Shown piece by piece: positions 5,112 through 63,406 of a stretch of 64,000 nucleotides of DNA. The translations under genes and the position numbers were made by a program. Where the stretch lies: contig NZ_JOFV01000003.1 of assembly GCF_000718325.1 (NCBI RefSeq), positions 124,001 to 188,000 on the forward strand, in the 5' to 3' direction. Numbering within the stretch: the first letter of the stretch is position 1; every line of letters starts with the position of its first letter. The notes under the pieces are model-generated. The model was not told the DNA's origin. It made no database searches and saw only the letters and a list, made by a program, of their open reading frames with translations. This stretch comes from Oerskovia turbata (lineage in GTDB: Bacteria; Actinomycetota; Actinomycetes; Actinomycetales; Cellulomonadaceae).

Positions 5112-5152
5112 TGTCAGAAGGAGCGTGGTCCCCGGGCACGTCGGTTCTGACA
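5112..5152. repeat. SEPA palindromic element, copy 1 (intergenic, 41 bp)
   Basis: Starts TGTCAGAA and ends TTCTGACA, matching the ends of the nine 42-bp copies, but is 1 bp shorter and has diverged arms. It lies between the convergent ends of the BatE-like gene and soxR, where length is not constrained by a reading frame. Confidence 0.9.
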
Positions 5153-5167
5153 GCCTTGCACGAGCCC

Positions 5168-5599
5168 TCAGTCGTCGAGGCCTTCGACGAGCCAGGTGCG
5201 CGGACCGGGGCCCTCCTCCGCGAGCACGTCGTGCGGGTTGGCCAGGACGCACTTGCGCAGGGAGAGGCACCCGCAGCCGATGCAGTCGGTGAGGTGGTCG
5301 CGCAGGCGCACGAGCTGTTCGATCCGGGCGTCGAGGTCCGCGTGCCACATCCGGGACAGCCGCCGCCAGTCCTTGGCGGTCGGGGTCCGGTTCTGCGGGA
5401 GCGTCGCGAGGGCCTCGCGGACCAGCGCGAGCGGGATCCCGACGCGCTGCGAGACGCGGATGAACGAGACGCGGCGCAAGGTCTCGCGGGGGTAGCGGCG
5501 CTGGTTGCCGGGCGTGCGGCGGGCCGTGAGCAGACCTTCGCGTTCGTAGAAGTGCAGGGCCGACACCGCGACGCCGCTGCGCCGCGCGAGCTCGCCGAC
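5168..5599 (-). pseudogene. soxR: SoxR-type MerR regulator lacking its start codon
   Basis: 143 codons on the minus strand match SoxR from VGELARRSGVAVSALHFYER onward, with the redox-sensing [2Fe-2S] ligands CIGCGCLSLRKC (C-x2-C-x-C-x5-C) near the C-terminus. SoxR normally begins about 5-8 residues before VGEL. Here the sequence upstream of base 5599 is instead antisense to an MFS gene, with no ATG, GTG or TTG close by in frame (the nearest is a GTG about 110 bp upstream). The gene therefore seems to have lost its start codon and promoter to a deletion that also removed the front of the divergent transporter gene. Translation of a long fusion from a distant start cannot be excluded. Confidence 0.75.
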
Positions 5600-6571
5600 C
5601 GCGTCTTCCCCGAGGCACGACGGCCCGCGGTGTTCGCGGCGTTCGCCGCGGCGTGGGTCGTGCCCTCGCTCGTCGGGCCCGTGATCTCGGGACTCATGGT
5701 CCAGCACCTCGGATGGCGCTGGGTCTTCCTCGCCGTGCCCGTGCTCGCCGTCCCGGCCGTGCTCATGATGCGCCCAGGCCTGCGGGCCGTCGAACGGGAC
5801 CGCCGCGAGGCCACCCCCGACGCGACCGGGAACGCGGCCCTGTGGTGGGCCGTGGCCGCCGCGGTGGGGATCGGGCTGCTGCACTTCGCCGGGCAGCAGG
5901 AGGGAGCGCGGCTGTACGTCCCGCTGGTCGTGGCGCTCGCGCTCGTCGTCGTCGCCGTCCCGCGCCTGCTCCCGCGCGGCACCGCGCGCGCCGCCCGCGG
6001 CCTCCCGTCGGTCATCGCGATCCGCGGCCTCGTCGCGGCGGCCTTCACCGGGACCGAGGTCCTGCTCCCCCTGCTCCTCCAGTCCGAGCGTGCCCTGTCC
6101 CCGACCCTGGCCGGTGGCATCCTCACGTTCGGGGCGATCGGCTGGTCGGTGGGCGCATGGTTGCGCGGCAAGGCGCACTGGGGCTGGTCGCACGCACGGT
6201 TCGTGCTCGTCGGGTCGCTGTTCGTCGCCGGCGGGATCTCCGGCACGGTGCTGCTCGCCTGGTCCGCGGTGCCGCCGATCGTCGGCATGCTCGCCTGGAC
6301 GTTCGCGGGCCTGGGCATGGGCCTGGTCCACCCGACGCTCTCGGTGCTCACGCTCGCGCTGTCCCCCGAGGACCAGCAGGGCGCGAACAGCTCGGCGCTC
6401 CAGGTGTCCGACGCCCTGTCCGCGGCCATCGCGCTCGCCGTGGCGGGATCGATGCTCGTGGTGCTGCGCGAGCCGCTGGGGCTCGGGGCGTACGTCGTGT
6501 GCTTCGGGGCCATGGTCGCGATCGCGCTGCTCGCGGCGTTCGTCTCGCCGCGTACCCGGGTCCCGGCCTGA
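5594..6571 (+). pseudogene. MFS transporter, N-terminal third missing
   Basis: The + strand from base 5594 reads ADRVFPEARRPAVFAAF, a point normally about 130-150 residues into a 12-14 helix MFS drug exporter, then continues with about nine hydrophobic helices to TGA at 6569-6571. The first four or five helices are absent and the coding sequence runs directly into the antisense of soxR at about 5597-5603. The only plausible local start is GTG at 5630, giving 313 residues. MFS exporters are commonly divergent from soxR, so the original layout was probably soxR and MFS back to back, with one deletion removing both 5' ends. Unlikely to make a working transporter. Confidence 0.75.
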
Positions 6572-6581
6572 ATCCCTCGTG

Positions 6582-7520
6582 TCAGCGGCTCGCGAGCGCC
6601 TCGACGCCCTCGGCGTAGCGGTCGAGCACGATGGCCGTCAGGCGCGCGTCGGGTGCGAGCGGGGCCGTGACGAGGTCGGCGCCGGTCTGGAGCAGCCGGT
6701 CGTGGAAGAAGCCGGGGGCGAGCAGGTAGGCGGCGACGACGACGCGCGGAGCGGGTGCGCCCGTCCCGCGCTCGTCGCTGCCCGACGGCGTCGCGTGGGT
6801 CTCACCGGTGGGTTCGCCGTCCGCGGTGGCCACCTCGCCCGTGGCTGCGCTCGTGGCGAGCGCCTCGCGCGCCGCCGCGACGGCGTCGCGCACCGTCGGG
6901 GTGGCCATGGCGCCGAACCCGACCGTGACGGGGCCGTCGTGGCGCGCACGCAGGAGCTCGGCAACGGCCTCGACGTCGCGTGCGGCGCCCGCCTTGCTCG
7001 ACCCGGCAGCGGCCAGGACCACCGAGTCGTGCGGACGGACACCGGCCTCGGCCAGGCGGTCGGCGAGGATCTCGGCGAGGCGCGGGTCGGGGCCGAGCGC
7101 GCGGGCTGCGGCCGCCGCTCCGTGCTGGGGTCCGCGGCCCTCGTGCGTGGGCGAGACGGCCTCGGTGATGTCGACGTTCACGTGGAAGCCCGTGGACAGC
7201 AGCAGGGGGACGACCACGGCTGCCGCGCCCCGACCCTCGCCCGTGGCGGGCGGTGCGACGGACTGCGTGACGACGTCGGCAACCTCCGGCTGCTGGACGT
7301 CGACGAACGCCTCGCGCACGTCGAGGTCGGGGCGGGTCGCACGGACGTCGTCGAGGATCGCGCGGATCGCGGCCTGGCCGTCCGGGTTGTCGGTGCCGTG
7401 CGAACAACCCACGAGCACAGGGCCACCACCGCCCGCGCCGCTGCCCGCGACGGCGCCGGCGCCGGACGGCACGCTCCCCTCGGTCGCGTCGGAGGGGAAC
7501 CCCAGGATCTCCGTGCTCAT
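6582..7520 (-). CDS. cbiX: Sirohydrochlorin chelatase (CbiX/SirB family)
   Basis: A 312-residue protein. The N-terminal 35 residues are Gly/Ala-rich linker, then VLVGCSHGTDNPDGQ carries the chelatase HGT motif, and VVPLLLSTGFHVNVDI supplies the second metal-site histidine. A second half-domain follows (VVLAAAGSSKAGAARDVEAVAELL, VVVAAYLLAPGFFHDRL), so this is the long two-domain form. It would insert iron into sirohydrochlorin to make siroheme for NirB, encoded in the same run of genes. The start ATG at 7520 overlaps the nnaR stop as ATGA. The precorrin-2 dehydrogenase step (SirC or CysG type) is not encoded in the window. Confidence 0.88.
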   Translation of the reverse strand: MSTEILGFPSDATEGSVPSGAGAVAGSGAGGGGPVLVGCSHGTDNPDGQAAIRAILDDVRATRPDLDVREAFVDVQQPEVADVVTQSVAPPATGEGRGAAAVVVPLLLSTGFHVNVDITEAVSPTHEGRGPQHGAAAAARALGPDPRLAEILADRLAEAGVRPHDSVVLAAAGSSKAGAARDVEAVAELLRARHDGPVTVGFGAMATPTVRDAVAAAREALATSAATGEVATADGEPTGETHATPSGSDERGTGAPAPRVVVAAYLLAPGFFHDRLLQTGADLVTAPLAPDARLTAIVLDRYAEGVEALASR

Positions 7521-8698
7521 GCCAGCTCCAGTCGATAGCCACGTTTGACGACGGTCTTGACGAGGGTGCGGTCGCCGACCGCCTCACGCAACCTGGCGAC
7601 CGCGACCTCGGCGGCGTGCGGGTCGCGCGAGTCGCCGGGCAGGGCCGCGAGGACCTGGTCCCGCGTCACGACGTCCCCCGCCCGGTCGCCCGCGCGCGCG
7701 GCCAGCAGCCGCAGGACCTCGAGGCCCGACGGCGAGAGCGGCAGGACGCGGCCGTCGAGCACCGCGACGCGTGAGCGGATCTGCAGGTTGCCCGCGACGG
7801 TCACGAGCGCGAGGGTCTCGGCGTGCTCGTAGTGCCCGACGAGCGTGCGGACCAGCGCGCCGAGGCGGCCGCGGTCCGGCTGGAGCGTCGGGATGCCGCG
7901 GTGCGCGAGCGGGCGGGCCGTGATGGGGCCGACCGCCGCCGCGATCATGGCACCGCTCGCGAAGCGCGCGACGACGGCGTCCCCGACCCCCTCGGACTCG
8001 GTGGCCGCGAGCCAGGCCTCGGCACCGGGGGCCGACGTGAAGACGACCGCGTCGATCTCCCCGGCCGCGGCAGCGTGGACCGACGCGCGCAGCGCCGCCT
8101 CGTCGGGCGGCGGCCCCCAGCGGTACACGATGAGGCTCGCGACGTCGGCCCCCGCCTGCGCGAAGACCACGTCGAGGCCGTCCGCGCCGGCGCCGTGGTG
8201 CTGGACCGCGATCCGCGACCCGTCGACCCCCTCGCCGAGCAGCACGTCCGCGATCTCGCCCGACGTCTCGGACTCGGCGACCCAGTCGGCCTGGAGGCCC
8301 GCGGCCTGGATCGCACCGCGCGCCTTGGGGCCCCGCGCGACCAGGCGGGCCCGGCCCATGACGTCCAGCAGCTCGTCGGCCAGGCCGTGCGCGTCGGCGG
8401 CCTCGATCCAGCCCCGGAACCCGATGCCCGTGGTCACGACCACGACGTCCGGCGGGTGCGCGATCAGGTCCCGCGTACCCGCGAGCAGCGCCTCGTCGTC
8501 CTCGTTGGGCACCATGCTCAGGGCCGGCGCGTGCCGCACCTCGGCGCCCCGGCGGGACAGCGCCGCGGCGAGCTCGGCCGACCGGCGGTCGGCCGTGACG
8601 AGGACCGTGCAGCCTGCCATGACCTGGCCCAGCGCGGGCCGGCGCTCACCGGTGGGCTCGTCCGCGACATCGGTGACGTCCGTGGCCTGCCCCGTCAC
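7517..8698 (-). CDS. nnaR: NnaR-type regulator: uroporphyrinogen-III synthase-like domain fused to winged helix
   Basis: 393 residues. Residues about 28-285 form a HemD-like two-lobed domain (VLVTADRRSAELAAALSR at the front, TSAPGAEAWLA, and AAVGPITARPLAHRG late in the domain). Residues about 305-393 form an OmpR-type winged helix (SPSGLEVLRLLAARAGDVV..., ending VVKRGYRLELA). In Streptomyces and Mycobacterium this fusion is NnaR, a nitrate assimilation activator that cooperates with GlnR, and its position among nirB, cobA and cbiX fits. A second stand-alone HemD at 55402 makes a purely catalytic role here less likely. The GTG at 8698 overlaps the cobA stop as GTGA. Confidence 0.85.
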   Translation of the reverse strand: MTGQATDVTDVADEPTGERRPALGQVMAGCTVLVTADRRSAELAAALSRRGAEVRHAPALSMVPNEDDEALLAGTRDLIAHPPDVVVVTTGIGFRGWIEAADAHGLADELLDVMGRARLVARGPKARGAIQAAGLQADWVAESETSGEIADVLLGEGVDGSRIAVQHHGAGADGLDVVFAQAGADVASLIVYRWGPPPDEAALRASVHAAAAGEIDAVVFTSAPGAEAWLAATESEGVGDAVVARFASGAMIAAAVGPITARPLAHRGIPTLQPDRGRLGALVRTLVGHYEHAETLALVTVAGNLQIRSRVAVLDGRVLPLSPSGLEVLRLLAARAGDRAGDVVTRDQVLAALPGDSRDPHAAEVAVARLREAVGDRTLVKTVVKRGYRLELA

Positions 8699-9594
8699 AG
8701 GGCGGGCTCCGGCACGAGGACGGACAGGGCGGGCAGAGCAGGCAGCGGCGCCGATCCGTCCGGGACGAGCAGCCCCTCGGCCGCGACGTCGCCCACGACC
8801 ACGACCGCGGGCGCGCGGATCCCGACCTCGGCCGCACGACGGACGAGCGTCCCGAGCGTGGCGCGCGTGACCCGCTGGTGCTGCGTGGAACCGGACTCGA
8901 CCACGGCGACGGGCGTGGCGACGTCGGCCCCGGCGGTGATCGCCTGGTCCGTGATCTCGCTCAGCATCGACACTCCCATGAGGATCACCAGGGTAGCCGT
9001 GCGGTCGCGCACCGCGGTCAGCGCGACCACGCCCAGGGGCTCGTGACCGTTGACGACCAGGAACGCGCCGACCGTCCCGCGGTGCGTGAGCGGGATGCCC
9101 GCGAGCGCCGGCACGGACAGCGCGCTGCTCACGCCGGGCACGACCTCGACCGGGACGCCCGCGGTCCGGCACGCGAGGACCTCCTCCCCGCCCCGCCCGT
9201 AGACGAACGGGTCGCCGCCCTTGAGCCGGACCACGCGTCGCCCGCGGCGGGCCTGCTCGACGAGGATCGCGTTGATCTCGTGCTGCGGGACGGGGTGGTG
9301 GCCCGGGGTCTTGCCGACGTCGATGATCTCGACGCCCGCGGGCAGGTCGGCGAGGACCTCGGTAGGCCCGAGGCGGTCGGTCACGACGACGTCGGCGCTC
9401 GCGAGCGCTCGCCAGGCGCGCACCGTGAGGAGGTCGGCGGCACCAGGTCCGCCGCCCACGAGCACGACCGAGCCGCCGGGCCCGGTGCCGCCGGCGCCGA
9501 ACATGCGGTTGGCGTCCGCCGAGCATGCGGTTGGCGTCCGTTCCTGGTCCGATCCGGACGACGACCGCATGCTCGGCACCGAGGGGGGCGTCAC
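8695..9594 (-). CDS. cobA: Uroporphyrinogen-III C-methyltransferase (SUMT)
   Basis: 299 residues from the GTG at 9594, which overlaps the nirD stop as GTGA. The catalytic domain begins at about residue 42 ([22 protein letters not shown]) and carries [17 protein letters not shown] and the GVSSAL SAM-binding segment. SUMT methylates uroporphyrinogen III to precorrin-2, the entry to siroheme. The first 30 residues are translated from an inserted 82-bp three-box repeat. An ATG inside the repeat at 9504 would give a cleaner 269-residue protein, so the start is uncertain. NasF-like genes often sit beside nirBD, as here. Confidence 0.88.
9496..9577 (-). repeat. 82-bp three-box repeat, copy 1 (start region of cobA)
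   Basis: Two direct boxes GCCGARCATGCGGTTG at 9496-9511 and 9518-9533 and one inverted box at 9562-9577, giving offsets 0, 22 and 66. The element sits between the nirD stop and the recognisable SUMT domain. Each box contains CATG, so it also provides an alternative ATG start. Confidence 0.9.
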
Positions 9595-12928: not shown

Positions 12929-14857
12929 TCAGCGGGGCAGGTCGGCGGGCTGGGGGGCCGTGGGATGCGCGGGCGCGGGGCTGTCCTGCTCCGGGTCCGC
13001 GCGGCGCAGCCAGTCGGCGAGCCCGCACACGACGTCCTTGCACCCGCCGCACCCGGTCGTCGCACGCGTCGTGCGCGCGATGTCCGTGGTGCTGCGGGCG
13101 CCTTCTCGCCAGCTCGCGACGATGTCGCCCTTGGTCACGCCGTTGCAGCTGCACACCGTGGTCCGGTCGGGCATGCGTGTGGGGTCCGACGCCGGTGCGG
13201 CGGCCTGCGCGACGGGTCGCAGCAGGAGGTGGGCCGGGTCCGCGGGCACGGGGACCCGGCGCGTGTAGGTCGCGGCGAGGTCGGCGCCGACCTGGGCGGC
13301 GCCGACGACGGTCGCCCCGACGAGGACCCCGCCCGCGACCACGACCTCGACGTGGCGTCCCGCGTCGGGGTCGGTCAGGCGCAGCGTGCGGTGGGTGGGG
13401 TCGTGGGGGCGCTGCGACCCGCAGACTCCCATCGCGACGACGTCGAGACCCGCGGCCTTGAGCCGCACGACGTCGGTGGGTGGTGTGGTGGACGCCCCAC
13501 CGCCGCGAGGGTCTTCCCGAGTTGCGGCCAACGGGGGTTCCTGGGCGCCGTGGACCCCCGCTGGCCTCGTCTCGCGAGGGCCGCGACCCGGCGTATCCCA
13601 CGCGCTCCGCCCGACGTCGAGCGCGATCCGCAGCGCCATGCTGGGTCGGTCCTCGTCGACGAACCGGACTCGGGGGCCCGGCCCGGCCTCCGTGGCGCCG
13701 GAGGCCGAGCGCCGTGGCCCCCTCACCGGTTCCGAGACGTCCGACACCCGCAGGGCGAGCCGTGCCGCGAGCCGCCGCGACTGCTCCCACCCCTGTGCGA
13801 TCAGGCCCGTGCCACCCTCGGGCGGCTGCGCGCAGTCACCGATCGCGTAGACGTCCGGGTCGTCGGGGCTCACCAGCCCCTGCCCGACGACGACGCCCCG
13901 GTCCACCGTCAGTCCGGCGGTCCGGGCGAGGGTCGCCTCGGGCACCGTCCCGCACGCGAGCACGAGCAGGTCGGCCGGGATCTCGTCGGCCGGGGCGACC
14001 GGGTCCGGGGCGGTGGGCCCCCCGGTGATCCCGGTCCCCGGTGCGCCGGTCGCACGAGGCGGGCGTCCACCGTCGGGCACGAGGACGAGGCCCGAGACCA
14101 CCGCGCCCTCGTCGCCGACGCCGCGCACCACGACCTCGCGCGTGCGCGTCCCGGTGCGCACCGTGATCCCGAGCGCGGTGAGCGTGCGCAGCGCGGCGAG
14201 GCCCGCGTCCGGGCCGAGCTGCCGGTCCATGGGGCTCGCGCCGCCGTGCGCCACGGTCACCGCGAGACCGCGCCGGGCCAGGCCGCACGCGACCTCGAGC
14301 CCGAGGACCCCCGCACCGATCACGACGGCGCGGCGCGCGTTGGCGGTCGCGGCGACGATCTCGCGCGCGTCGTCGAGCGTGCGCAGGGCGTGCACCCCGG
14401 CGGGCAGCGAGCCGCCGGGCCCCGAGCGCAGGCCCGGGACGTCCGGGATGCGCGCGGCCGAACCGGTCGCGAGCACCACCGCGTCGTACCCGAACGCGCC
14501 GTCGCTCGTGAGCACGGTGCGCGAGGCCCGGTCGATCGCGATCGCGGGCGCTCCCCGGTGGACCTCGACGCGTCCGTCGTCGACCGAGGGCAGGGTCAGG
14601 GCACCGATGTCGGCCCGGCCCGCGACGACGTCGCTCAGCAGGACACGGTTGTACGGCTCGTACTCCTCGTCGCCGAGCACGGTGACGTGCAGGGCACGGG
14701 CGCGGTGCTCCTGGTCCGGGTCGATCGCGGCCAGGAGGTCGGCCACGAACCGCGACCCGACCATCCCGTCACCCACGACGACGACCCGGAACGAGGTGTC
14801 AGAACCAGCGTGACCCCTGGCCCACGCTGGTTCTGACACCTCGATGGCGTGGGTCAT
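12929..14857 (-). CDS. nasB: NasB-like electron-transfer subunit of assimilatory nitrate reductase
   Basis: 642 residues. FAD domain (VVVVGDGMVGSRFV at about 24), NAD domain (VVIGAGVLGLEVACGLA near 175) and a C-terminal BFD-like [2Fe-2S] domain (CSCNGVTKGDIV, CGGCKDVV). It would pass NAD(P)H electrons to NasC. ATG at 14857 is preceded by a perfect AGGAGG and overlaps the nasC stop as ATGA. Residues 7-21 (VSEPAWARGHAGSDT) are encoded by a SEPA palindromic element placed directly before the FAD-binding strand. There is also a long Arg/Pro-rich, poorly conserved-looking stretch around residues 400-470. No siroheme domain, which distinguishes it from NirB. Confidence 0.88.
   Translation of the reverse strand: MTHAIEVSEPAWARGHAGSDTSFRVVVVGDGMVGSRFVADLLAAIDPDQEHRARALHVTVLGDEEYEPYNRVLLSDVVAGRADIGALTLPSVDDGRVEVHRGAPAIAIDRASRTVLTSDGAFGYDAVVLATGSAARIPDVPGLRSGPGGSLPAGVHALRTLDDAREIVAATANARRAVVIGAGVLGLEVACGLARRGLAVTVAHGGASPMDRQLGPDAGLAALRTLTALGITVRTGTRTREVVVRGVGDEGAVVSGLVLVPDGGRPPRATGAPGTGITGGPTAPDPVAPADEIPADLLVLACGTVPEATLARTAGLTVDRGVVVGQGLVSPDDPDVYAIGDCAQPPEGGTGLIAQGWEQSRRLAARLALRVSDVSEPVRGPRRSASGATEAGPGPRVRFVDEDRPSMALRIALDVGRSAWDTPGRGPRETRPAGVHGAQEPPLAATREDPRGGGASTTPPTDVVRLKAAGLDVVAMGVCGSQRPHDPTHRTLRLTDPDAGRHVEVVVAGGVLVGATVVGAAQVGADLAATYTRRVPVPADPAHLLLRPVAQAAAPASDPTRMPDRTTVCSCNGVTKGDIVASWREGARSTTDIARTTRATTGCGGCKDVVCGLADWLRRADPEQDSPAPAHPTAPQPADLPR
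14797..14838. repeat. SEPA palindromic element, copy 2 (inside nasB)
   Basis: 42 bp with perfect arms. With the flanking bases the stem reaches 20 bp (14795-14840 and slightly beyond). It begins at the second base of codon 7 and encodes SEPAWARGHAGSD, lying about 20 bp after the start codon. Confidence 0.97.
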
Positions 14858-17175
14858 GCGACCACCTCCTCCGGGGCCGGCTCGACCGCGACCGCGCAGA
14901 CCTTGAACTCGGGCATCCCGGAGATCGGGTCTGTCGCGTCGGTCGTGATGCGGTTGACGCTCCCGGCGCCGCTCCAGTGGAAGGGCATGAACACCGTGTC
15001 GGTGCGGATGTCGTCGCTCCACCGCGCGGGGGCCCGGACGTCGCCCCGGGCAGACGTGAGCCGCACCGGGTCGCCGTCGCGGATGCCCAGGCGGAACCCG
15101 AGGACCGGGTGCATCTCGACGAACGGACCAGGCACGATCCGTTCGAGGTCGGCGACGCGGCGCGTCTGCGCACCCGACTGGTAGTGCTGCAGGACGCGGC
15201 CCGTCACGAGGTACACCGGGGCGTCGGGCCGCAGGTCGTCGCTGGGCCCGACGTGGTCGACCGCGACCATGCGCGCACGCCCGTCGGGGGTGTGGAAGCG
15301 GTCGAGGAACAGTCGCGGGGTGCCGGGGTGCGGCTCTCCCCCGACCGGGTTGTCAGAACCAGCGTGGACCATGGCACTCGCTGGTTCTGACAAGCCAGCG
15401 GGTTCCGCCGGCACCGGCCAGTACAGGCCCGGTCCGCCCGCGGCCTCGTCGGCGTCGAGCCTCGCGTGGCTGAGCCCCGAGTAGTCCGCGACGCCGCCCG
15501 CCGAGGCGCGGGCCAGCTCGTCGAAGACCTCGGCCGGGTCGAGCGGGAACGGCACGGTCGAGCCCAGGCGTCGCGCGAGCTCGGCGAAGACCCACAGCTC
15601 GGACCGGACGTCTCCCGGCGGCGTCACGACCTGCCGTCGGCGGATCACGCGTCCTTCGAGCGACGTCATGGTCCCCTCCTCCTCGGCCCACTGCGTCACG
15701 GGCAGCACGACGTCGGCGCGCAGCGCTGTCTCGGACGGCACCAGGTCGCACACCACGAGCAGGTCGAGGGCGTCGAGGCGCTCCGTGACGCGGGTCGCGT
15801 CCGGGGCGCTGACCAGCACGTTCGAGCCGTGCACGAGCAGCGCCCGGGGGCCGCCCGGTGTCCCGAGCGATCGCAGCAGCTCGACCGCCGGCCTGCCGGG
15901 CCCGGGCAGCGAGTCCGGGTGCACGCCCCACACCGCAGCGACGTGGGCGCGTGCGGCCGGGTCGTCGATCTTGCGGTAGCCGGGGAGCTGGTCGGCCTTC
16001 TGCCCGTGCTCGCGCCCGCCCTGCCCGTTGCCCTGCCCGGTGATCGCGCCGTACCCGGACCCGGTCCGGCCGGGCAGGCCCAGCGCGAGCGCGAGGTTGA
16101 TCGCAGCGGTGACGGTCGCGGTCCCCTGGGTCGACTGCTCGACGCCCCGGCCCGTGAGGACGTACGCCCCGCGCCCGCCGCGCGCGGGCGAGGCCGCAGC
16201 GAGCAGCCGAGCGACGCGGCGGAGGTCGTCGGCAGGGACACCGCACACGGTCTCGGCGCGCTCGGGCCACCAGGCCGCGACCGCTCGCCGCACGTCCTCG
16301 ACCCCGGACGCCCGCGCCGCGAGGTACTCGGTGTCGGCGAGGCCCTCGGCCCACACGACGTGCAGGAGCGCGAGCAGCACCACGAGGTCGGTGCCCGGCA
16401 CGGGCTGCAGGTGGATTCCCTGCGGCGGGCCCTCGCGCGGCCCGGTGAGCGCGGCGGTCGCCGAGCGTCGCGGGTCCACGACCACGAGCCCGCCGCGCTC
16501 GCGCACGCCCGCGAGGTGCTGGACCGAGGGCGGCATGGTCTCGGCCGGGTTCGAGCCGAGCAGCAGCACGGCATCGGCCCCGGCGAGGTCGGCGAGCGGG
16601 AAGGGCAGACCGCGGTCGGCACCGAACGCGCGGTTGGCGCCGGCGGCCGCGCTCGCCATGCAGAAGCGCCCGTTGTAGTCGATGTTCGCGGTGCGCAGCA
16701 CGGCCCGTGCGAGCTTGCCCAGCGCGTACGCCTTCTCGTTGGTGAGTCCCCCGCCGCCGAAGACCGCGACCGCGTCGCGCCCCGACGCAGCCTGGATCTC
16801 CGTGATGCCGCGGGTGACCCGCCCGAGCGCCTCGTCCCACGTCGCGGGCCGCAGCCCGCCGCGCGTCACCGCCCCCGCCGCATCGACCGTGCGGTCGCGC
16901 ACGAGTGGGACCGTGAGCCGGTCGTGCGCGGTGAGCAGGCTCGCGCTGGTCCAGCCCTTCTGGCACAGCCCGCCCTTGTTGGTGGGGAACTCGCGCGGTA
17001 CGACGACCACGCGGGGCGAGACTCCGCCGTCGGGCCCGGGGTCCTGTGCGGGCGTGAGCGTCATGCCGCACTGCAGCGCGCAGTAGGGGCAGTGCGTGTC
17101 CCGGCCCGACGGCGCCGCTCGCCCGGCGCGGGCTGCGGCACCCGGGGCGTGGGCCGGCCGGGCGACGGGGTCCAC
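14854..17175 (-). CDS. nasC: Assimilatory nitrate reductase catalytic subunit
   Basis: 773 residues. N-terminal [4Fe-4S] motif CPYCALQCGM with the fourth cysteine in GGLCQKGW, then the molybdopterin-binding domains (VFGGGGLTNEKAYALGKLAR, LLGSNPAETMPPSVQHL, TGRGVEQSTQGT, ITGQGNGQGGREHGQKADQLPG) and the C-terminal dinucleotide-binding domain (VYLVTGRVLQHYQSGAQTRR). It reduces nitrate to nitrite. GTG at 17175 lies 2 bp after the narK stop. A SEPA element encodes residues 595-609, in a loop before the C-terminal domain. It is the middle gene of narK-nasC-nasB. Confidence 0.93.
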   Translation of the reverse strand: MDPVARPAHAPGAAARAGRAAPSGRDTHCPYCALQCGMTLTPAQDPGPDGGVSPRVVVVPREFPTNKGGLCQKGWTSASLLTAHDRLTVPLVRDRTVDAAGAVTRGGLRPATWDEALGRVTRGITEIQAASGRDAVAVFGGGGLTNEKAYALGKLARAVLRTANIDYNGRFCMASAAAGANRAFGADRGLPFPLADLAGADAVLLLGSNPAETMPPSVQHLAGVRERGGLVVVDPRRSATAALTGPREGPPQGIHLQPVPGTDLVVLLALLHVVWAEGLADTEYLAARASGVEDVRRAVAAWWPERAETVCGVPADDLRRVARLLAAASPARGGRGAYVLTGRGVEQSTQGTATVTAAINLALALGLPGRTGSGYGAITGQGNGQGGREHGQKADQLPGYRKIDDPAARAHVAAVWGVHPDSLPGPGRPAVELLRSLGTPGGPRALLVHGSNVLVSAPDATRVTERLDALDLLVVCDLVPSETALRADVVLPVTQWAEEEGTMTSLEGRVIRRRQVVTPPGDVRSELWVFAELARRLGSTVPFPLDPAEVFDELARASAGGVADYSGLSHARLDADEAAGGPGLYWPVPAEPAGLSEPASAMVHAGSDNPVGGEPHPGTPRLFLDRFHTPDGRARMVAVDHVGPSDDLRPDAPVYLVTGRVLQHYQSGAQTRRVADLERIVPGPFVEMHPVLGFRLGIRDGDPVRLTSARGDVRAPARWSDDIRTDTVFMPFHWSGAGSVNRITTDATDPISGMPEFKVCAVAVEPAPEEVVA
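15351..15392. repeat. SEPA palindromic element, copy 3 (inside nasC)
   Basis: 42 bp, arms TGTCAGAACCAGCG and CGCTGGTTCTGACA. Read on the minus strand it encodes SEPASAMVHAGSD in frame, starting at the second codon base of residue 595. Confidence 0.97.
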
Positions 17176-42703: not shown

Positions 42704-42704
42704 C

Positions 42705-51413: not shown

Positions 51414-52523
51414 GTGACGTTCACCGCGCTTTCCGACAACCACCCTCTCGTCGACGGTCGGACGACGAATTCCTCGCTCGTGCGCGCATTGCGCGGCGAG
51501 CGCCCCGAGACCACTCCTGTGTGGTTCATGCGACAGGCCGGGAGGTCGTTGCCCGAGTACCGCGAGCTGCGCCGGGGCGTCGGCATGCTGGACTCGTGCC
51601 TGCGCCCGGACATGGCGAGCGAGATCACGCTCCAGCCGGTGCGCCGGCACGGTGTGGACGCGGGGATCTTCTTCTCGGACATCGTGATCCCGCTCAGGCT
51701 CGCGGGGGTCGAGGTCGACATCGTCCCGGGTGTGGGCCCGGTCATGGGCCAGGCGTACCGGACGCCCGCCGACGTCGCGCGCCTCGTCGAGCACGAGCTG
51801 ACCCCGGAGTCGCTCGCCCCGGTGACGGAGGCGGTCTCGCTCACGGTCGCGGCGCTCGGGTCGACGCCTCTCATCGGTTTCGCGGGGGCGCCGTTCACGC
51901 TCGCGGCGTACCTGGTGGAGGGGCGGCCGTCGCGCGACCACCTCGCGGCGCGCACGCTCATGCACGCGGACCCGGAGTCGTGGGCGCGCCTGACGGCGTG
52001 GACGGCGCAGATCACGGGCGCGTTCCTGCGGGCGCAGGTGCTGGCGGGGGCCAGCGCGGCGCAGCTGTTCGACTCGTGGGCCGGGAGCCTGTCCCTGGAG
52101 GACTACCTCGCAGGTGCGAAGCCGGGCAGCACGGTGGCGTTGTCACAGGTCAGCGACCTGGGTGTGCCTGCGATCCACTTCGGGACGGGCACGGGGCACC
52201 TGCTGGGTGCGATGCGGGACGCCCTCACGGAGGCCGGCGTGACGCACCCGACCGTGGGTGTCGACTACCGCACGCCCCTCGACGAGGCCGCCGCGGCGCT
52301 CGGCGGGTACGTGCCGGTCCAGGGCAACATCGACCCGGCGCTGCTCGCGGCACCGTGGCCGGTGCTCGAGGCGCACGTGCGCGACGTCCTGCGTCGTGGG
52401 GGCGCGGCGCCGGGGCACGTGGTGAACCTCGGCCACGGGGTGCCGCCCGAGACGGACCCGACGGTCCTGACCCGGGTGGTCGAGCTGGTCCATTCCGTCC
52501 GGAACGTGTCAGAACCTGCGTGA
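51414..52523 (+). CDS. hemE: Uroporphyrinogen decarboxylase
   Basis: 369 residues. PVWFMRQAGRSLPEYR (substrate-binding arginines), GIFFSDIVIPL, GFAGAPFTLAAYLVEG, and VVNLGHGVPPETDP at the C-terminus. Decarboxylates uroporphyrinogen III to coproporphyrinogen III. GTG 51414 is a plausible start with no strong ribosome binding site (leaderless or weak). The last five codons (VSEPA) and the stop TGA lie inside a SEPA palindromic element. Confidence 0.95.
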   Translation: MTFTALSDNHPLVDGRTTNSSLVRALRGERPETTPVWFMRQAGRSLPEYRELRRGVGMLDSCLRPDMASEITLQPVRRHGVDAGIFFSDIVIPLRLAGVEVDIVPGVGPVMGQAYRTPADVARLVEHELTPESLAPVTEAVSLTVAALGSTPLIGFAGAPFTLAAYLVEGRPSRDHLAARTLMHADPESWARLTAWTAQITGAFLRAQVLAGASAAQLFDSWAGSLSLEDYLAGAKPGSTVALSQVSDLGVPAIHFGTGTGHLLGAMRDALTEAGVTHPTVGVDYRTPLDEAAAALGGYVPVQGNIDPALLAAPWPVLEAHVRDVLRRGGAAPGHVVNLGHGVPPETDPTVLTRVVELVHSVRNVSEPA

Positions 52524-52548
52524 CCTCTGGGTCTCGCACGGTCTGACA
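52507..52548. repeat. SEPA palindromic element, copy 4 (end of hemE)
   Basis: 42 bp. It enters hemE at the second base of codon 365 in the usual phase, and a variant base in the centre (GCG TGA) makes the hemE stop codon. The rest is intergenic, 29 bp before the next start. Confidence 0.96.
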
Positions 52549-54229: not shown

Positions 54230-55402
54230 GTGAGCATTCGTGTCGGAACCCGTGGCAGCGCCCTCGCGACGACCCAGACGGGTCTCGTCGCCCGGCGCAT
54301 CGAGACCCTGACCGGTCAGCCGGTCGAGATCGTGCGCGTCCGCACCGAGGGCGACGTCCGCACCGGCTCGCTCGCCCAGATGGGCGGCACGGGGGTGTTC
54401 GTGACCGCGCTGCGCGAGGCGCTGCTCGACGGCCGCTGCGACGTCGCCGTCCACTCCCTCAAGGATCTCCCGACCGGCGCGGCCGAGGGCCTGACCCTCG
54501 TGACGCCCGAGCGGGAGAACCCGCGCGACGCCCTGTGCGCCCGCAACGGCTGGACCCTGGAGACCCTGCCGCGCGGGGCCAAGGTCGGCACGGGTTCGCC
54601 GCGCCGCGCGGCCCAGCTCCTCGCGGTGCGCCCCGACCTCGACGTGCTCGACATCCGCGGCAACGTCGACACGCGCCTCGCACGGGCGCTCGGCCCCGAC
54701 GCCGACCTCGACGCGGTCGTCCTCGCCTACGCCGGGCTCTCGCGCCTCGGCCGCCTCGACGCGGTGTCCGAGGTCATCGACGTGCGCATCATGGCCCCGG
54801 CCCCCGGGCAAGGCGCGCTGGGCGTCGAGGTCCGCACGGCAGACCTCTCGCCGCTGTCCTCGTTCGACCTCCTGCCCGACGGCGCCACGCACCGCCCGCT
54901 CGACCTCGCCGACGTCGTCGCGGGCCTCGACCACGTCCCGACCCGCCTCGCGGTCCTCGCCGAACGCGCCCTCCTCGCACGCCTCGAAGCCGGCTGCGCG
55001 GCGCCCGTCGGCACGCACGCCGTGGTCGAGGACGACGAGATCCGGCTCTCGGCGGTCGTCGCCCGGCTCGACGGCGGGCAGGTCCTCACGCACTCGGCGC
55101 GGGTCGCGCTGCCGTCGCCCGCGGGCACGCTGGACCCGTCGGGCGTCGCACGCTCGTCCGCCGAGAGGCACGACGCCACCGACGCGCTCGCCCGCGGCCT
55201 CGGGGTCCAGGTCGCCGACGCGCTGCTGGCCGCAGGCGCCGCCGACCTCGCGCCGCTGCGCGCGACCGGCCCCGGAGGTGACTCGCTCCCCCCGTCCGAG
55301 GCACCTGCCCTCTGGGCCCCGGGCACCGCGCCCGGCGACGGCACGGGCGACGAGCCCCCTGTCGGCGGCACCGACGCCCCTGTGGGCCCGGAGCAGCGCT
55401 GA
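54230..55402 (+). CDS. hemC: Hydroxymethylbilane synthase (porphobilinogen deaminase)
   Basis: 390 residues. IRVGTRGSALATTQTGLVA start, VHSLKDLPTG, VGTGSPRRAAQL, DIRGNVDTRL, and the dipyrromethane cofactor cysteine in RLEAGCAAPVG. About 70 residues longer than usual because of a Pro/Gly-rich C-terminal tail. GTG 54230 has GGAAG upstream. The 158-bp gap before it (54072-54229) has lower GC than the genes and probably carries the promoter. Stop overlaps hemD start as TGATG. Confidence 0.95.
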   Translation: MSIRVGTRGSALATTQTGLVARRIETLTGQPVEIVRVRTEGDVRTGSLAQMGGTGVFVTALREALLDGRCDVAVHSLKDLPTGAAEGLTLVTPERENPRDALCARNGWTLETLPRGAKVGTGSPRRAAQLLAVRPDLDVLDIRGNVDTRLARALGPDADLDAVVLAYAGLSRLGRLDAVSEVIDVRIMAPAPGQGALGVEVRTADLSPLSSFDLLPDGATHRPLDLADVVAGLDHVPTRLAVLAERALLARLEAGCAAPVGTHAVVEDDEIRLSAVVARLDGGQVLTHSARVALPSPAGTLDPSGVARSSAERHDATDALARGLGVQVADALLAAGAADLAPLRATGPGGDSLPPSEAPALWAPGTAPGDGTGDEPPVGGTDAPVGPEQR

Positions 55403-56427
55403 TGCCCGGACGCCTGCGCGACCCGCAGCGCGGCCGCGACCTGCCACCGCTGCACCCGGCCACTGCTGCCGGGGACACCCCCTCCGAGTCCCCCGGCCGA
55501 CCGGGCGCGGCGAGCGACGCCGTCGGGCAGGACGGTGCCGGGCGGCTGGCCGGGACCACCGTCCTCCTCCCGCGGTCGCCCGAGCGTGCTGCTGCCCTCG
55601 CGGCGCGGCTGCGCACCCACGGTGCGACCGTGCTCGTGAGCCCCGCGATCGAGCGCGCCCCCATCGAGGACACGTCGGCGATGGACGCCGCCGTGGCGGA
55701 CCTCGCGGCGTTCGCGTGGGTCGTCGTCACGAGCGTCAACGCGATCGACGAGCTGACCGCGAGCGCCGCACGCCGCGGTGTCTCGCTCGCCGACCTGTCA
55801 GAACGAGCGAGGGCTGGAGTGCGCGCTGGTTCTGACACGAAGTGGGCGGCGGTCGGGCCCGCGACGCGACGAGCCCTGGAGTCCGCGGGTGTCCGGGTCG
55901 ATCTGGAGGCGGCCGTGAACTCGGCGGTCGGGCTGCTCGCGGCGTTCGACGCTTTTCCTGCCCCCGACCCGTCGCGGCGCGGCGTGCTCGTGCCGCAGGG
56001 CGACCTCGCGAAGCCCACCATGGCCGACGGCCTGCGCGCCCGCGGCTGGGACCCGCACGTCGTGACCGCGTACCGGACCGTCTCGCACACGCTCTCCCCG
56101 GAGGTCGTGGACGCGTGGCGCACGGGCGAGGTCGACGTGGTCGTGCTCACCTCGGGCAGCGTCGCACGCGAGGTCGCGACCCAGCTCGGCGCGGACCCGC
56201 GCGTCGCGGGCGTCGCGATCGGCGAGCCGACGGCGGAGGCCGCGCACGCCGTCGGGCTGCGGATCGACGAGGTGGCCACCCAGGCGACCGACGACTCCCT
56301 GGCCGACGCGGTGCTGCACGTCGCCGCCCGCCCCGCCACCCCCACGAACCTGTCAGAACCAGCGAGCACCCCAGGTCACGCTCGTTCTGACAACACCACC
56401 ACGACAGAAGGCAGGAACCACCCGTGA
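55402..56427 (+). CDS. hemD: Uroporphyrinogen-III synthase with two SEPA insertions
   Basis: 341 residues. Two HemD lobes: [54 protein letters not shown] and [13 protein letters not shown]. It closes hydroxymethylbilane to uroporphyrinogen III. Residues 132-146 ([15 protein letters not shown]) and 317-331 ([15 protein letters not shown]) come from two SEPA palindromic elements, one between the lobes' strands and one in the tail. The first 50 residues are a Pro/Gly-rich extension. ATG 55402 overlaps the hemC stop and the stop overlaps hemB (GTGA). Confidence 0.93.
55796..55837. repeat. SEPA palindromic element, copy 5 (inside hemD)
   Basis: 42 bp, left arm TGTCAGAACGAGCG, right arm GCGCTGGTTCTGACA (one base longer, overlapping the centre). 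In frame with hemD from the second base of codon 132. Confidence 0.96.
56351..56392. repeat. SEPA palindromic element, copy 6 (C-terminus of hemD)
   Basis: 42 bp, in frame from codon 317, encoding [13 protein letters not shown] eleven codons before the hemD stop. Confidence 0.97.
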
Positions 56428-59507: not shown

Positions 59508-59647
59508 GGTGGGCTCCTGACGTCGTGTCGTGTCCCGCCAGGAACGCTGGAGCACCGTCCGTGCGGGCTGTTCGGTTCTCATCGAACACCCGAAACGGCT
59601 GCATGTCGTGGCGAACCGCGCATTCGTCGCGGAGGGACCGTGGCCCC

Positions 59648-59703: not shown

Positions 59704-59731
59704 TCCGAGCGAGTGATCACGGAGGCCCAGC

Positions 59732-60073
59732 ATGAGCGACACGACCACCCAGCGCCCGGTCGAGCCGGGCGCTGCCCCCGCCCACACCGGCCCCCACGGG
59801 TACGCCTCCGACAAGGAGGCCTACCTCAAGCGCATGCGCCGCATCGAGGGCCAGGTCCGTGGCATCGCCCGCATGATCGACGAGGACGTCTACTGCATCG
59901 ACATCCTCACCCAGGTCTCCGCGGTGACCAAGGCCCTCCAGGCGGTGTCCATCGGACTCGTCGAGGACCACCTCGGCCACTGCGTCGTCGACGCCGCCCG
60001 GTCCTCCGAGGCCGAGGGCGCCGCCAAGGTCCGCGAGGCGTCCGACGCCATCGCCCGTCTCGTCCGCAGCTGA
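59732..60073 (+). CDS. csoR: Copper-sensing repressor CsoR
   Basis: 113 residues. All-helical CsoR with RRIEGQVRGIARMIDED and the Cu(I) ligands C55 (VYCIDIL), H80 and C84 (EDHLGHCV), spaced 25 and 4 residues apart as in known CsoR. ATG 59732 with GGAGG. Represses the operon with copZ and copA through the two TACCC...GGGTA sites. Release on copper binding is established for the family. Confidence 0.94.
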   Translation: MSDTTTQRPVEPGAAPAHTGPHGYASDKEAYLKRMRRIEGQVRGIARMIDEDVYCIDILTQVSAVTKALQAVSIGLVEDHLGHCVVDAARSSEAEGAAKVREASDAIARLVRS

Positions 60074-60099
60074 CACCCCACCCCTCCCCAAGGAGCACC

Positions 60100-60468
60100 A
60101 TGAGCACCGTCACCACCCTCGGCGTCACCGGCATGACCTGCGGCAACTGCGTCTCGCACGTCACCAAGGACGTGAGCGCCGTCCCCGGAGTCGAGAACAT
60201 CAGCGTCGACCTGAACGTCGGCGGCGCCTCCGAGGTCACCGTCTTCTCTGACGACCCGCTCGACGAGGCCGCGCTGCGCGAGGCCGTCGACGAGGCCGGC
60301 TACGAGGTCGTGAGCTACGACGTCCAGCTCGACGCCCAGGCCGCGCAGTCGGCCGAGCAGGCCGCCGACCGCAAGGCGCACAACTGCGGCTGCGGCTGCG
60401 GCACGGACTCGGCCGCGGACGCCGCGCCGGCACAGAAGACGTACGACCTCCAGGTCCCGCAGGCCTGA
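60100..60468 (+). CDS. copZ: Copper chaperone CopZ with Cys-rich tail
   Basis: 122 residues. HMA domain (1-68) with the copper site GMTCGNC. An extra tail has NCGCGCGT, four more potential ligands not usual in CopZ (about 68 residues). AAGGAGCACC before the ATG. Carries copper to CopA. Followed by a SEPA element and 197 bp to copA. Confidence 0.92.
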   Translation: MSTVTTLGVTGMTCGNCVSHVTKDVSAVPGVENISVDLNVGGASEVTVFSDDPLDEAALREAVDEAGYEVVSYDVQLDAQAAQSAEQAADRKAHNCGCGCGTDSAADAAPAQKTYDLQVPQA

Positions 60469-60485
60469 CCAGTCCCGGTCGGGGT

Positions 60486-60527
60486 TGTCAGAACCAGCGA
60501 GGCCTCGGCCCCACGCTCGCTCTGACA
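60486..60527. repeat. SEPA palindromic element, copy 7 (between copZ and copA)
   Basis: 42 bp with diverged arms (right arm TCGCTCTGACA). Flanking GGGGT and ACCCC extend the stem. It lies 17 bp after copZ and could act as a partial terminator. The adjoining 197 bp (60528-60724) is GC-rich with no supported gene. Confidence 0.95.
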
Positions 60528-60724
60528 ACCCCACCCCGCCCCACCCCCGCAGGCCGCTTGCCGACACCTCAGCCGCGCCCCTCACGCCGCTGACCCAGGC
60601 CGCCCGCGCCGCCGCCCCGCACCTCGGGGCGCGCCCACCGTCCCCGCCCGCGACGCACGGGCCGCGACGGAGCACCCCCGCCTGGCGGGAACCGCCGGAC
60701 GCACCACACTGTCGAGGAGCACCG

Positions 60725-63406
60725 ATGACCACCCCCACCGGCCTGACCGCCGGCCCGACCTTCGTCGAGGTCGACCTCGCGATCGAGGGCATGACGTGCG
60801 CGTCGTGCGTCGCACGCGTCGAGAAGAGGCTCAACCGCGTCGACGGCGTCGAAGCCACCGTCAACCTGCCGCTCGAGAGCGCGCACGTCGTGCTGCCCGA
60901 GGGAGTCACCGACGCCGAGCTCGTCGCGGCCGTCGAGAAGGCCGGCTACCAGGCACGCGTCACGGGACGTCGCGCGGCGAGCCTCGCCGTCTCGGCGAGG
61001 GTGGCGGCCCCTGGAGCCGCCGTCGTGTCAGAACCAGCGAGCACCCCGGATCACGCTGGTTCTGACAGGCCCGCCGAGCCGGTCCCGGCCCCGGCGCCCG
61101 CTCCGTCTCCGGCCTCGGCGACCCTCGCGTCGACCGACACCTCGGCACCCACGCGCGACCGCGGCGCCGACCTCGGGCGCCGCCTCAAGGTCGCCGCGGT
61201 CCTCACGCTGCCCGTCGTGCTGCTGTCGATGATCCCGGCCCTGCAGTTCCCCGGCTGGCAGTGGGTCGTCACGGCCCTCGCCCTGCCGGTCGTGACCTGG
61301 GGCGCGTGGCCGTTCCACACCGCGGCCTTCCGCGCAGCCCGCCACGGCGCCTCGACCATGGACACGCTCGTGTCGATCGGCGTATTCGCCGCGACCCTGT
61401 GGTCCCTGTGGGCGCTGCTGCTGGGCGGCGCAGGCGAGATCGGCATGCGCATGTCGGTGTCGCTGCTGCCCTCGCGCGCCCACGGCTCGATGCCCGAGCT
61501 CTACTTCGAGGTCGCAGCCGTCGTCACGACGTTCCTCCTCGCGGGCCGCTGGTCCGAGCACCGCTCGCGCCGCAAGGCCGGCGACGCACTGCGCTCGCTC
61601 CTCGCGATGGGCGCCAAGGACGCCGAGCGCGTCACGACCGGCCCCGACGGGCAGCGCGTGACCGAGCGCGTCCCCGTCGCGGCCCTGCGTGAGGGCGACC
61701 TGTTCACGGTCCGCCCCGGCGAGAAGGTCGCGACCGACGGCGTCGTGGTCGAGGGGAGCTCGGCCGTCGACACCTCGCTCCTGACCGGCGAGCCCGTCCC
61801 CGTCGACGTGACGCCGGGCGCCGACGTCACGGGCGCGACCGTCAACACCTCGGGCCACCTGCTCGTGCGTGCGACACGCGTGGGCGAGGAGACGACGCTC
61901 GCGCAGATCGGGCGCCTCGTGAGCCAGGCACAGACGGGCAAGGCCCCCGTGCAGCGCCTCGCGGACCGCATCTCGGCGGTGTTCGTGCCGATCGTCCTGG
62001 TCCTGGCCGTGCTCACCCTGGGCGGCTGGCTGCTCGCGGGAGCCAGCACGCAGTTCGCGTTCACGGCTGCCGTGGCCGTGCTGATCATCGCGTGCCCGTG
62101 CGCCCTGGGGCTCGCGACGCCGACCGCGCTGCTCGTCGGCACGGGCCGCGGCGCCCAGCTCGGCATCCTCATCAAGGGCCCCGAGGTCCTGGAGTCCACG
62201 CGCCGCGTCGAGGTGATCGTGCTCGACAAGACCGGCACCGTCACGCAGGGCCGCATGGCCCTCGAGCGCGTGGTCACGCGCGAGGGCACGCTCGACCTGT
62301 CGTCGGACGCGGCGCGGGCTGCCGCCGGCTCGTCGAGCGAGACGCCCGACGGCGCCGCTCACCACGCCCTGCGTCTCGCCGGCGCCGTGGAGGGCTTGAG
62401 CGAGCACCCGATCGCGCAGGCGATCGCAGCCGCTGCGACGCGGATCTCGGTGCCGACCGGCGCCCGCCTGTCAGAACCAGCGGGTACTGGAGGTCACGCT
62501 GGTTCTGACAACTCAGACGCGGCGGGCGTCGAGACCGGCGCCGACGGCGTCGTGATCGGCTCGGCGCAGGTCTTCGACTTCGTGAGCTCCCCCGGCGGCG
62601 GCGTGAGCGGCCTGGTCCGCACCGCGCACTCGGGCCTGTCCCCTGACGGTGGGCTCAACGCGCAGCGGGTCCTGGTCGGTCGGCCGACGTGGCTCGCCGA
62701 GCAGGGCGTCGCGTTCGACGTGTCAGAACCAGCGGGGACCATGGGTCACGCTCGTTCTGACACCACTGAGGGTGAGCTGCGCCGCGTGTTCGACGAGGCC
62801 GAGGCCACGGGCGCGACCGCCGTCGTCGTCGCCTGGAACGGCACCGCTCAGGGCGTCCTCGTCCTGCGCGACCCCGTCAAGGAGACCTCGGCCCAGGCCG
62901 TGGCCGAGCTCCGCGACCTGGGGCTGCGTCCCCTCCTCCTCACGGGGGACAACGCGGGCGCGGCCCGCGTCGCGGCCAGCCAGGTCGGGATCGCGGACGA
63001 GGACGTGATCGCGCAGGTCCTGCCGCAGGACAAGGTCGACGTCGTCGCCCGCCTGCGCGCGCAGGGCCGCGTCGTGGCGATGGTCGGGGACGGCGTGAAC
63101 GACGCCGCCGCGCTCGCCGGGGCCGACCTCGGCCTGGCCATGGGTACCGGCACCGACGTCGCGATCGAGGCGAGCGACATCACGCTCGTGCGCGGCGACC
63201 TGCGCTCGACCGCGACCGCGATCCGGCTCTCACGGCAGACGCTGCGCATCATCAAGCAGAACCTGTTCTGGGCCTTCGCCTACAACGTGGCCGCGATCCC
63301 GCTCGCCGCCGCCGGGCTGCTCAACCCGATGATCGCGGGCGCGGCGATGGCCATGAGCTCGGTGCTCGTCGTGGGCAACTCGCTCCGCCTGCGCCGAGCG
63401 GGCTGA
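60725..63406 (+). CDS. copA: Copper-exporting P1B-type ATPase carrying three SEPA insertions
   Basis: 893 residues, about 140 above a typical one-HMA CopA. HMA domain with GMTCASC (C25/C28), membrane helices, the CPC metal site (about residue 457), phosphorylated D501 in DKTGT, SEHPIA, TGDN and GDGVNDAAAL (about 788). SEPA elements encode residues 101-115 (linker after HMA), 582-596 and 666-680 (both in the nucleotide-binding domain, outside the motifs). Residues about 598-640 are also low-complexity insertion. Start ATG 60725 with GAGGAG. Exports Cu(I). Confidence 0.94.
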   Translation: MTTPTGLTAGPTFVEVDLAIEGMTCASCVARVEKRLNRVDGVEATVNLPLESAHVVLPEGVTDAELVAAVEKAGYQARVTGRRAASLAVSARVAAPGAAVVSEPASTPDHAGSDRPAEPVPAPAPAPSPASATLASTDTSAPTRDRGADLGRRLKVAAVLTLPVVLLSMIPALQFPGWQWVVTALALPVVTWGAWPFHTAAFRAARHGASTMDTLVSIGVFAATLWSLWALLLGGAGEIGMRMSVSLLPSRAHGSMPELYFEVAAVVTTFLLAGRWSEHRSRRKAGDALRSLLAMGAKDAERVTTGPDGQRVTERVPVAALREGDLFTVRPGEKVATDGVVVEGSSAVDTSLLTGEPVPVDVTPGADVTGATVNTSGHLLVRATRVGEETTLAQIGRLVSQAQTGKAPVQRLADRISAVFVPIVLVLAVLTLGGWLLAGASTQFAFTAAVAVLIIACPCALGLATPTALLVGTGRGAQLGILIKGPEVLESTRRVEVIVLDKTGTVTQGRMALERVVTREGTLDLSSDAARAAAGSSSETPDGAAHHALRLAGAVEGLSEHPIAQAIAAAATRISVPTGARLSEPAGTGGHAGSDNSDAAGVETGADGVVIGSAQVFDFVSSPGGGVSGLVRTAHSGLSPDGGLNAQRVLVGRPTWLAEQGVAFDVSEPAGTMGHARSDTTEGELRRVFDEAEATGATAVVVAWNGTAQGVLVLRDPVKETSAQAVAELRDLGLRPLLLTGDNAGAARVAASQVGIADEDVIAQVLPQDKVDVVARLRAQGRVVAMVGDGVNDAAALAGADLGLAMGTGTDVAIEASDITLVRGDLRSTATAIRLSRQTLRIIKQNLFWAFAYNVAAIPLAAAGLLNPMIAGAAMAMSSVLVVGNSLRLRRAG
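61026..61067. repeat. SEPA palindromic element, copy 8 (copA linker)
   Basis: 42 bp, perfect TGTCAGAACCAGCG arm and CGCTGGTTCTGACA arm, in frame from codon 101. Confidence 0.97.
62469..62510. repeat. SEPA palindromic element, copy 9 (copA N-domain)
   Basis: 42 bp with both 14-bp arms intact, in frame from codon 582; encodes SEPAGTGGHAGSD. Confidence 0.97.
62721..62762. repeat. SEPA palindromic element, copy 10 (copA N-domain)
   Basis: 42 bp, in frame from codon 666; encodes SEPAGTMGHARSD. Only 210 bp after copy 9. Confidence 0.97.

Follow-up and report, generated by a model that had tools for sequence, protein, structure and literature searches.

A 42-bp palindrome family in Oerskovia and its relatives flanks the gene for a predicted AbiEi/Vsr-type nuclease, its likely mover

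Ten short palindromes are scattered over a 64,000-nucleotide stretch of the Oerskovia turbata genome (contig NZ_JOFV01000003.1, positions 124,001 to 188,000; this whole stretch is hereafter the window), most of them in or entering protein-coding genes, and the question that they raise is how such sequences came to lie there and what moves them. A preliminary description, made from the sequence alone, took them for elements inserted in frame whose mobiliser was either elsewhere or lost. This was half right: a cognate gene is present on contig C9 of the same genome, outside the window. That description also under-called its own finding, which goes beyond insertions to a two-part system that extends across the bacterial family. 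The 42-bp repeats flank one gene for a predicted AbiEi/Vsr-type nuclease in all 22 genomes with a near relative of it, and it is quite likely that this gene's product copies the palindromes to other places.

Each of the ten palindromes claimed between 5112 and 62762 was recovered at its reported start (Table 1), and nine are 42 bp long, as reported, the element at 5112 being the exception at 41 bp. Their core is TGTCAGAAC-N24-GTTCTGACA. Both 14-bp arms are perfect around a 14-bp middle in four elements (none in shuffled sequences), and the remaining six have one to four arm changes altogether. Five elements are fully intragenic (15351, 55796, 61026, 62469, and 62721) and two are intergenic (5112 and 60486); the eight that are in or enter coding DNA do all start at the second base of a codon, as had been claimed.

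The family had been thought confined to the nitrate, heme, and copper loci of the window, which is too narrow. In the genome of the window (G000), both 9-bp ends are exact in 59 copies, and 79 copies match TGTCAG-N30-CTGACA, a pattern whose reversed control gives none, and a functional account built on nitrate, heme, and copper genes was abandoned because the copies are genome-wide. Exact-end copies in the Oerskovia genomes G000 to G006 number 59, 1, 12, 68, 1, 4, and 6, respectively, and in G002 and G004 most interiors differ (GGCCGG...CCGGCC type) while the ends are the same or similar. With one mismatch allowed, the 9-bp-end pattern occurs in 25 of 221 genomes and 10 of 25 genera of the family, in a search that fixed the element length at 42 bp; an open-gap search of G000 (18-30 bp) listed 42-bp copies only. 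In different genera the outer ends return at the same 42 bp, with interiors and neighbouring bases that vary by lineage, and the middle of the element is mostly palindromic and lineage-specific. Flank profiles give no family-wide tag: GATCAGT is seen in G002, CTCG in G013 and G022, and G[AG][CG]N in Oerskovia. To the outer right of the Oerskovia elements CGTC is frequent, yet often paired. The 9-bp-end scan of an even draw of 396 genomes of the order, 35 of them in the family, matched 0 of the 361 out-of-family genomes. At G000:C19:64172-64205 the end word and seven interior bases of the element run into unrelated sequence, which may mark a truncated copy. In G013, two long inverted repeats that resemble each other (L067:10893-11022 and L079:17692-17890) were missed by the element scan and possibly represent another palindrome family.

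Comparison of element-near genes between lineages singled out one unannotated gene of about 311 codons that is flanked by elements on both sides in G000, G002, G003 (O. jenensis), and G004, and also in a genome of another genus, G013. A protein search blind to repeats found this gene in 31 of the 221 family genomes at E<=1e-30, and relatives of at least 50% identity in 22 of these 31. Exact TGTCAG-N30-CTGACA palindromes lie within 500 bp on both sides of the gene at 19 of the 22 loci (21 if one mismatch is allowed) and on at least one side at all 22; reversed sequences gave none, and of 70 exact palindromes, only one was farther than 600 bp from the gene. Immediately inside TGTCAG, the next three bases vary with lineage (AAC, TAC, AAA, ACC, GGC, GCG, or CGC). 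Three neighbours of the gene in G000 match the Pfam families DUF47, phosphate transporter (PHO4), and NUDIX, and at this shared phosphate transporter/NUDIX locus the gene itself is 58% identical between G000 and G004, whereas the neighbours are 98, 93, and 90% identical.

Gene and palindrome also go together across genomes. TGTCAG-N30-CTGACA is present at 6-200 copies in all 22 genomes that carry a gene of this near clade; among 199 gene-less genomes, 17 have at least five copies, 20 have one to four, and 162 have none (gene versus at least five copies, Fisher 4e-20). More distant relatives of the protein, at 36-41% identity, comprise nine in one genus and the second gene of G179, and form a separate, fully supported clade in a protein tree (8 rows). 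All eight fetched loci of this sister clade have a different palindrome on both sides of the gene, of the ACGTCCGCA type in six and the ACGTCCGAG type in two. The sister palindrome (ACGTCCG...) occurs in nine of the ten genomes with a sister gene, the tenth being 61% complete, and in four of 211 others (Fisher 2e-12). G179 has both genes and both palindromes; in G131 two near-clade genes are present, and next to each lies an end variant of its own. Loss of the gene may be followed by decay: both 9-bp ends are intact in 11 of 36 copies from gene-less Oerskovia versus 127 of 167 in G000 and G003 (p 5e-7), a comparison valid for the G000/G003 end type only, because the ends in G002 and G004, whose gene is of the other version, vary after TGTCAGAA and few are intact there.

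This pairing of gene type with palindrome type in two clades bears on whether the palindromes might be small remnants left behind by an ordinary insertion sequence with TGTCAGAAC ends, with the nuclease gene as a passenger. TG...CA ends, which are frequent in transposons, and a length of 42 bp that could equal two fused 21-bp ends would suit such an origin, but a passenger gene leaves the match in two clades unexplained. A scan of six whole genomes for end words that lack an intact right partner gave 83 matches, of which about nine were non-elements by eye (reversed control, 8), a frequency no higher than chance, and 1.28 Mb of fetched sequence gave two unpaired end words, both degenerate elements. 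No insertion sequence with the same exact ends was recognised, in a search that did not extend to parents with altered ends or to the neighbourhoods of the nine words, and a leftover origin appears very improbable.

The partner protein is predicted to be a fusion of an AbiEi-type part with a Vsr/homing-type nuclease. Residues 11-186 match a PADLOC AbiEi model (2e-19), and residues E209, D241, H261, and D270 are invariant and fit an EDxHD pattern. No Y1 domain (PF01797) was found in the seven Oerskovia genomes at E<=0.001 (control matches, 5 of 14), the flanked protein itself has no Y1 match, and no family search made identified it as a REP-associated tyrosine transposase (RAYT) or as another transposase. 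We infer that the nuclease moves the palindromes. Under this proposal the AbiEi-like part would recognise the palindrome ends, the nuclease would cut at or near them, and repair of the break would copy a single palindrome or a doublet to another place. Most insertions into genes would be lost, and the survivors would be those in linkers and tails, read in the single codon phase that combines a mostly open frame with a hydrophilic peptide (xSE...SDx).

A fixed codon phase had been claimed from the window, and its tabulation over many loci bears the claim out. All 35 fully inserted copies, at 18 independent places by the codon-usage model, are in phase 2, in which a codon starts at element base 3 (the counts exclude elements 350-400 bp or less from fetched ends and duplicates with identical flanks). 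These coding calls come from a home-made codon model, and its thresholds of 8, 12, and 20 give 38, 35, and 26 copies, all in phase 2. Genes running into an element are in phase 2 in 32 of 37 cases, with four of the five exceptions at nuclease-gene loci; in an earlier pass, with as many as three mismatches tolerated in the ends, the phase 2 counts were 37 of 37 inserted and 33 of 34 entering. Genes reading out of an element (n=34) have no fixed phase, with 19, 9, and 6 in phases 2, 1, and 0. The TGA noted in the right arm of one of the other frames is real, and phase 1 is open in 0 of 534 readings over fetched elements. Phase 0 is open in 499 of 534 and phase 2 in 414 of 534, and still phase 0 is absent among inserted copies despite being open more often. 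The element peptide is much less hydrophilic in phase 0 than in phase 2 (mean hydropathy -0.04 against -1.10). Since the fixed ends read S-E...S-D in phase 2 only, the simplest reading of the single phase would be selection after insertion.

In-frame insertion, as opposed to ancestral sequence, is supported by outgroups, most of which lack the inserts, and by sites that differ between Oerskovia species. Of 20 aligned HemD proteins, those from Cellulosimicrobium, Isoptericola, Paraoerskovia, Sanguibacter, Promicromonospora, and others are without the internal 14-residue insert, and several inserts are apparent in O. turbata HemD. CopA was examined in the best 120 of 7996 matches. Among the nearest 20 (15 named Oerskovia, the protein of the window itself, and four others), a peptide pattern detects the insert in 12, 9, and 14 at the three respective sites, and among the other 100, O. 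flava included, in 2, 1, and 0; G002 and G004 have a decayed form of the insert at 62721. At both 14797 and 15351 the element is absent from G001, G005, and G006 but present in G003 and, with a different interior, in G002. Sites shared by ancestry between genera were considered for the hemD element, which is found in Oerskovia and G168, and rejected on the HemD alignment: the internal copies are at different places and the other copy is in the tails, which may be read as tolerant places used repeatedly. The patterns that the preliminary description had named as evidence against insertion, the same peptide at the same sites in homologues from distant genera and a random phase, did not emerge, and the clean 42-bp empty site that it had proposed to look for was not obtained.

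Elements also occur in close pairs. Among 24 neighbouring pairs less than 88 bp apart, 15 have a spacer of 18-22 bp, for a doublet period of 60-64 bp, and O. jenensis has a doublet at the hemD-tail site that corresponds to 56351. In G013 two doublets that are almost identical, down to a 19-bp spacer in each, lie 1.8 kb apart; their outer flanks are unrelated, which indicates that the doublet was copied as a unit. Five elements stand in tandem at L157:259-549 (G002:C49), with a 62-63 bp period and alternating left flanks.

Among intergenic copies closely flanked by two genes (n=97; six with distant neighbours were excluded from the orientation count), the flanking genes are convergent in 42 cases, tandem in 50, and divergent in 5, against 124, 346, and 136 of all 606 gaps in the same loci. 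AbiEi binds inverted repeats at its own promoter, and the palindromes might accordingly be operators of an autoregulated AbiEi-type repressor, with the scattered copies forming a regulon rather than mobile DNA. Such a repressor would suit the AbiEi-like N-terminal part, the palindromes on both flanks of the gene, and the conservation of some gene-3'-end sites across species. Operators are expected upstream of genes, however, and the excess of convergent and scarcity of divergent copies go the other way; copies also lie within coding regions of unrelated genes, are mostly missing from outgroups, and include a tandem run of five and a copied doublet with unrelated flanks, while the nuclease part is left without explanation. 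An operator function is improbable as the account of the family.

The strong bias towards gene 3' ends is equally what would be expected of hairpins selected by the host, for transcription ends or mRNA stability, which the nuclease would homogenise by cutting and gene conversion and not by transposition. Sites common to G000/G003 and G002 carry lineage-specific interiors, and the pairing of the element at 52507 is maintained through changes in five relatives, both of which fit this alternative. Against it, the copy number per site varies, as in O. turbata HemD with its several apparent inserts, and neither the absence from outgroups nor the copied doublet is readily accommodated. Homogenised host hairpins are an unlikely explanation. 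The operator, insertion-sequence, and host-hairpin readings all rank below movement by the nuclease.

A number of observations nevertheless weigh against the nuclease as mover. Differences between filled and empty sites, read by eye, are 39-54 bp and not exactly 42, and no clear target-site duplication appears in these comparisons. The 50% identity cut was chosen after the list had been inspected, absence of the gene holds at the depth of the usually 11 candidates scored per genome, and the genome counts behind the Fisher values are not phylogenetically independent. Five of the 22 relatives (G132, G143, G166 in two pieces, G177, and G147) are partial-length matches and may be broken. There are 17 gene-less genomes with 5-109 copies (97 in G190 and 109 in G193), and a profile search of these carriers gave no good relative, the best score being a weak 63 bits in G187. 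In G004 the gene is accompanied by only 12 copies, and despite the gene just 12 of 60 copies in G002 and 1 of 12 in G004 have intact 9-bp ends. Foldseek matches at E<=0.001 cover the N-terminal part only (6y8q and 1zel), and the nuclease part has predicted local distance difference test (pLDDT) blocks of 51-84 with middling fold-match Z scores.

The gene-less carriers have likely lost the gene while the copies survived. Loss of a REPtron, with surviving copies, is described for E. coli strains in PMC3733652. In one genus, G190, G193, G187, and G186 have 38-109 palindromes without a clear partner gene, for which recent gene loss and a diverged partner are alternatives.

Further observations concern the surroundings of particular elements and genes. 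The hemE-end palindrome at 52507-52548 is present in six Oerskovia species (L051, L048, L038, L053, and L055 were compared), and in G004 it has paired changes on both arms, which suggests a kept hairpin at the gene end. Rfam gave no matches at gathering scores for the window and four loci. Beside the partner gene in G002 (L180:1291-1326) and G004 (L181:1291-1326) is a 36-bp palindrome similar to those of the other type in Oerskovia (CAGGACCAGCGTGACC...), which may be left from a G000-type system at the same locus. Other candidate genes were set aside: those flanked by elements in L026 belong to ordinary families or to none, and those between the L158 doublets were assessed by eye on the open reading frame list alone. 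Beyond the family, a plasmid search gave no match, and IMG/VR gave one partial relative without a repeated palindrome. An unverified 7.6-kb gut phage record (MT837139; L207) encodes a 32% relative whose gene lies between copies of a different repeated palindrome (3344 and 4408), a hint that the system extends outside this family of bacteria. The weak relatives L203, L204, and L205 have no palindrome repeated on both sides.

Table 1. Palindromic elements of the window, the genes that carry several of them, and the cognate nuclease gene. Positions are those of the window unless a contig or locus is named.
Feature	Position	Strand	Remarks
Degenerate palindromic element, 41 bp	5112..5152		Intergenic, between two genes
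42-bp element	14797..14838		Minus-strand gene for a pyridine-nucleotide/BFD protein (MTHAIEVSEPAWARGHAGSDTSFRV...); in frame, close to the N-terminus
42-bp element	15351..15392		Within molybdopterin oxidoreductase (nitrate reductase-type) gene, phase 2
42-bp element	52507..52548		hemE 3' end; supplies final residues VSEPA and stop
42-bp element	55796..55837		Within hemD, phase 2 (LSERARAGVRAGSD)
42-bp element	56351..56392		hemD C-terminal tail, phase 2
42-bp element	60486..60527		Gap upstream of copA
42-bp element	61026..61067		Within copA, phase 2
42-bp element	62469..62510		Within copA, phase 2
42-bp element	62721..62762		Within copA, phase 2
hemD	55402..56427	+	Two in-frame elements
copA (P-type copper ATPase)	60725..63406	+	Three in-frame elements
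Cognate nuclease gene	G000:C9:23686-24549 (L101:8187-9050)		Elements at L101:7970, 9056, and 9119

Several known systems resemble the Oerskovia one in part. Rickettsia palindromic elements (RPE) are likewise inserted in frame in protein genes; as far as descriptions of RPE go, the Oerskovia elements differ in their length of 42 bp, in belonging to another phylum, and in having a cognate gene. PMC3733652 describes RPE-1 as a longer element, and it assigns RPE-4/6 to CGTC-type repeats for which no transposase is known. Here mobile DNA can contribute protein linkers in a single reading phase. The predicted C-terminal fold and invariant residues of the partner protein resemble the Vsr/DUF559/EDxHD homing endonuclease I-Bth0305I, from which it differs in being fused to an AbiEi-like part and flanked by palindromes, with no intron seen. 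Its residues 11-186 resemble the AbiEi antitoxin of type IV toxin-antitoxin systems, both in the AbiEi model and in 6y8q; unlike that antitoxin it has a nuclease part, and its G000 neighbours are DUF47, the phosphate transporter, and NUDIX. The system would offer a function for some of the DUF559/AbiEi-like proteins whose role is unknown.

The closest parallel is with repetitive extragenic palindromes (REP), the REPIN that they form, and RAYT (TnpA-REP). The consulted parts of PMC2817692 and PMC3733652 describe these as short palindromes, often paired, that lie mostly at gene 3' ends and sometimes within genes. According to the same portion of PMC3733652, the proposed REP mover is a HUH tyrosine transposase, and CGTC REPs, a large class, are apparently without a dedicated transposase. 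The Oerskovia system differs in that it has no Y1 (PF01797) match and its cognate protein is AbiEi-like with a Vsr/homing-type nuclease, and in that its palindrome is near-symmetric, recurs at 42 bp, and in flank profiles shows no family-wide counterpart of the unpaired GTAG or CGTC tag at one end of REP. Within the open-access literature, as far as the sources consulted go and with most subscription journals and preprints outside this scope, there was no report of such a nuclease with cognate palindromes. It is probable, if with some reserve, that this is a second, independently evolved palindrome mobility, in which an AbiEi-Vsr nuclease without HUH/DDE chemistry recognises the palindromes beside its own gene, copies them singly or as doublets around the chromosome under a clade-specific palindrome code, and leaves a 14-codon in-frame hydrophilic linker. 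A non-HUH nuclease flanked by its own palindromes is a testable candidate for a different mobility chemistry, and the matched nuclease-palindrome pairs form a natural series usable for specificity work. The system is not placed among REPtrons, because the defining Y1 protein was searched for and not found, but it works like one, with an organisation as in the consulted parts of PMC2817692, PMC3733652, and PMC8266576. As in the REP-RAYT systems described in the first two of these, the cognate gene is flanked by palindromes, its presence tracks copy number, and it evolves faster than its neighbours at the same locus; and as with REP-RAYT, doublets appear as mobile units, since 15 of 24 close pairs share the 18-22 bp spacer and one doublet was copied whole.

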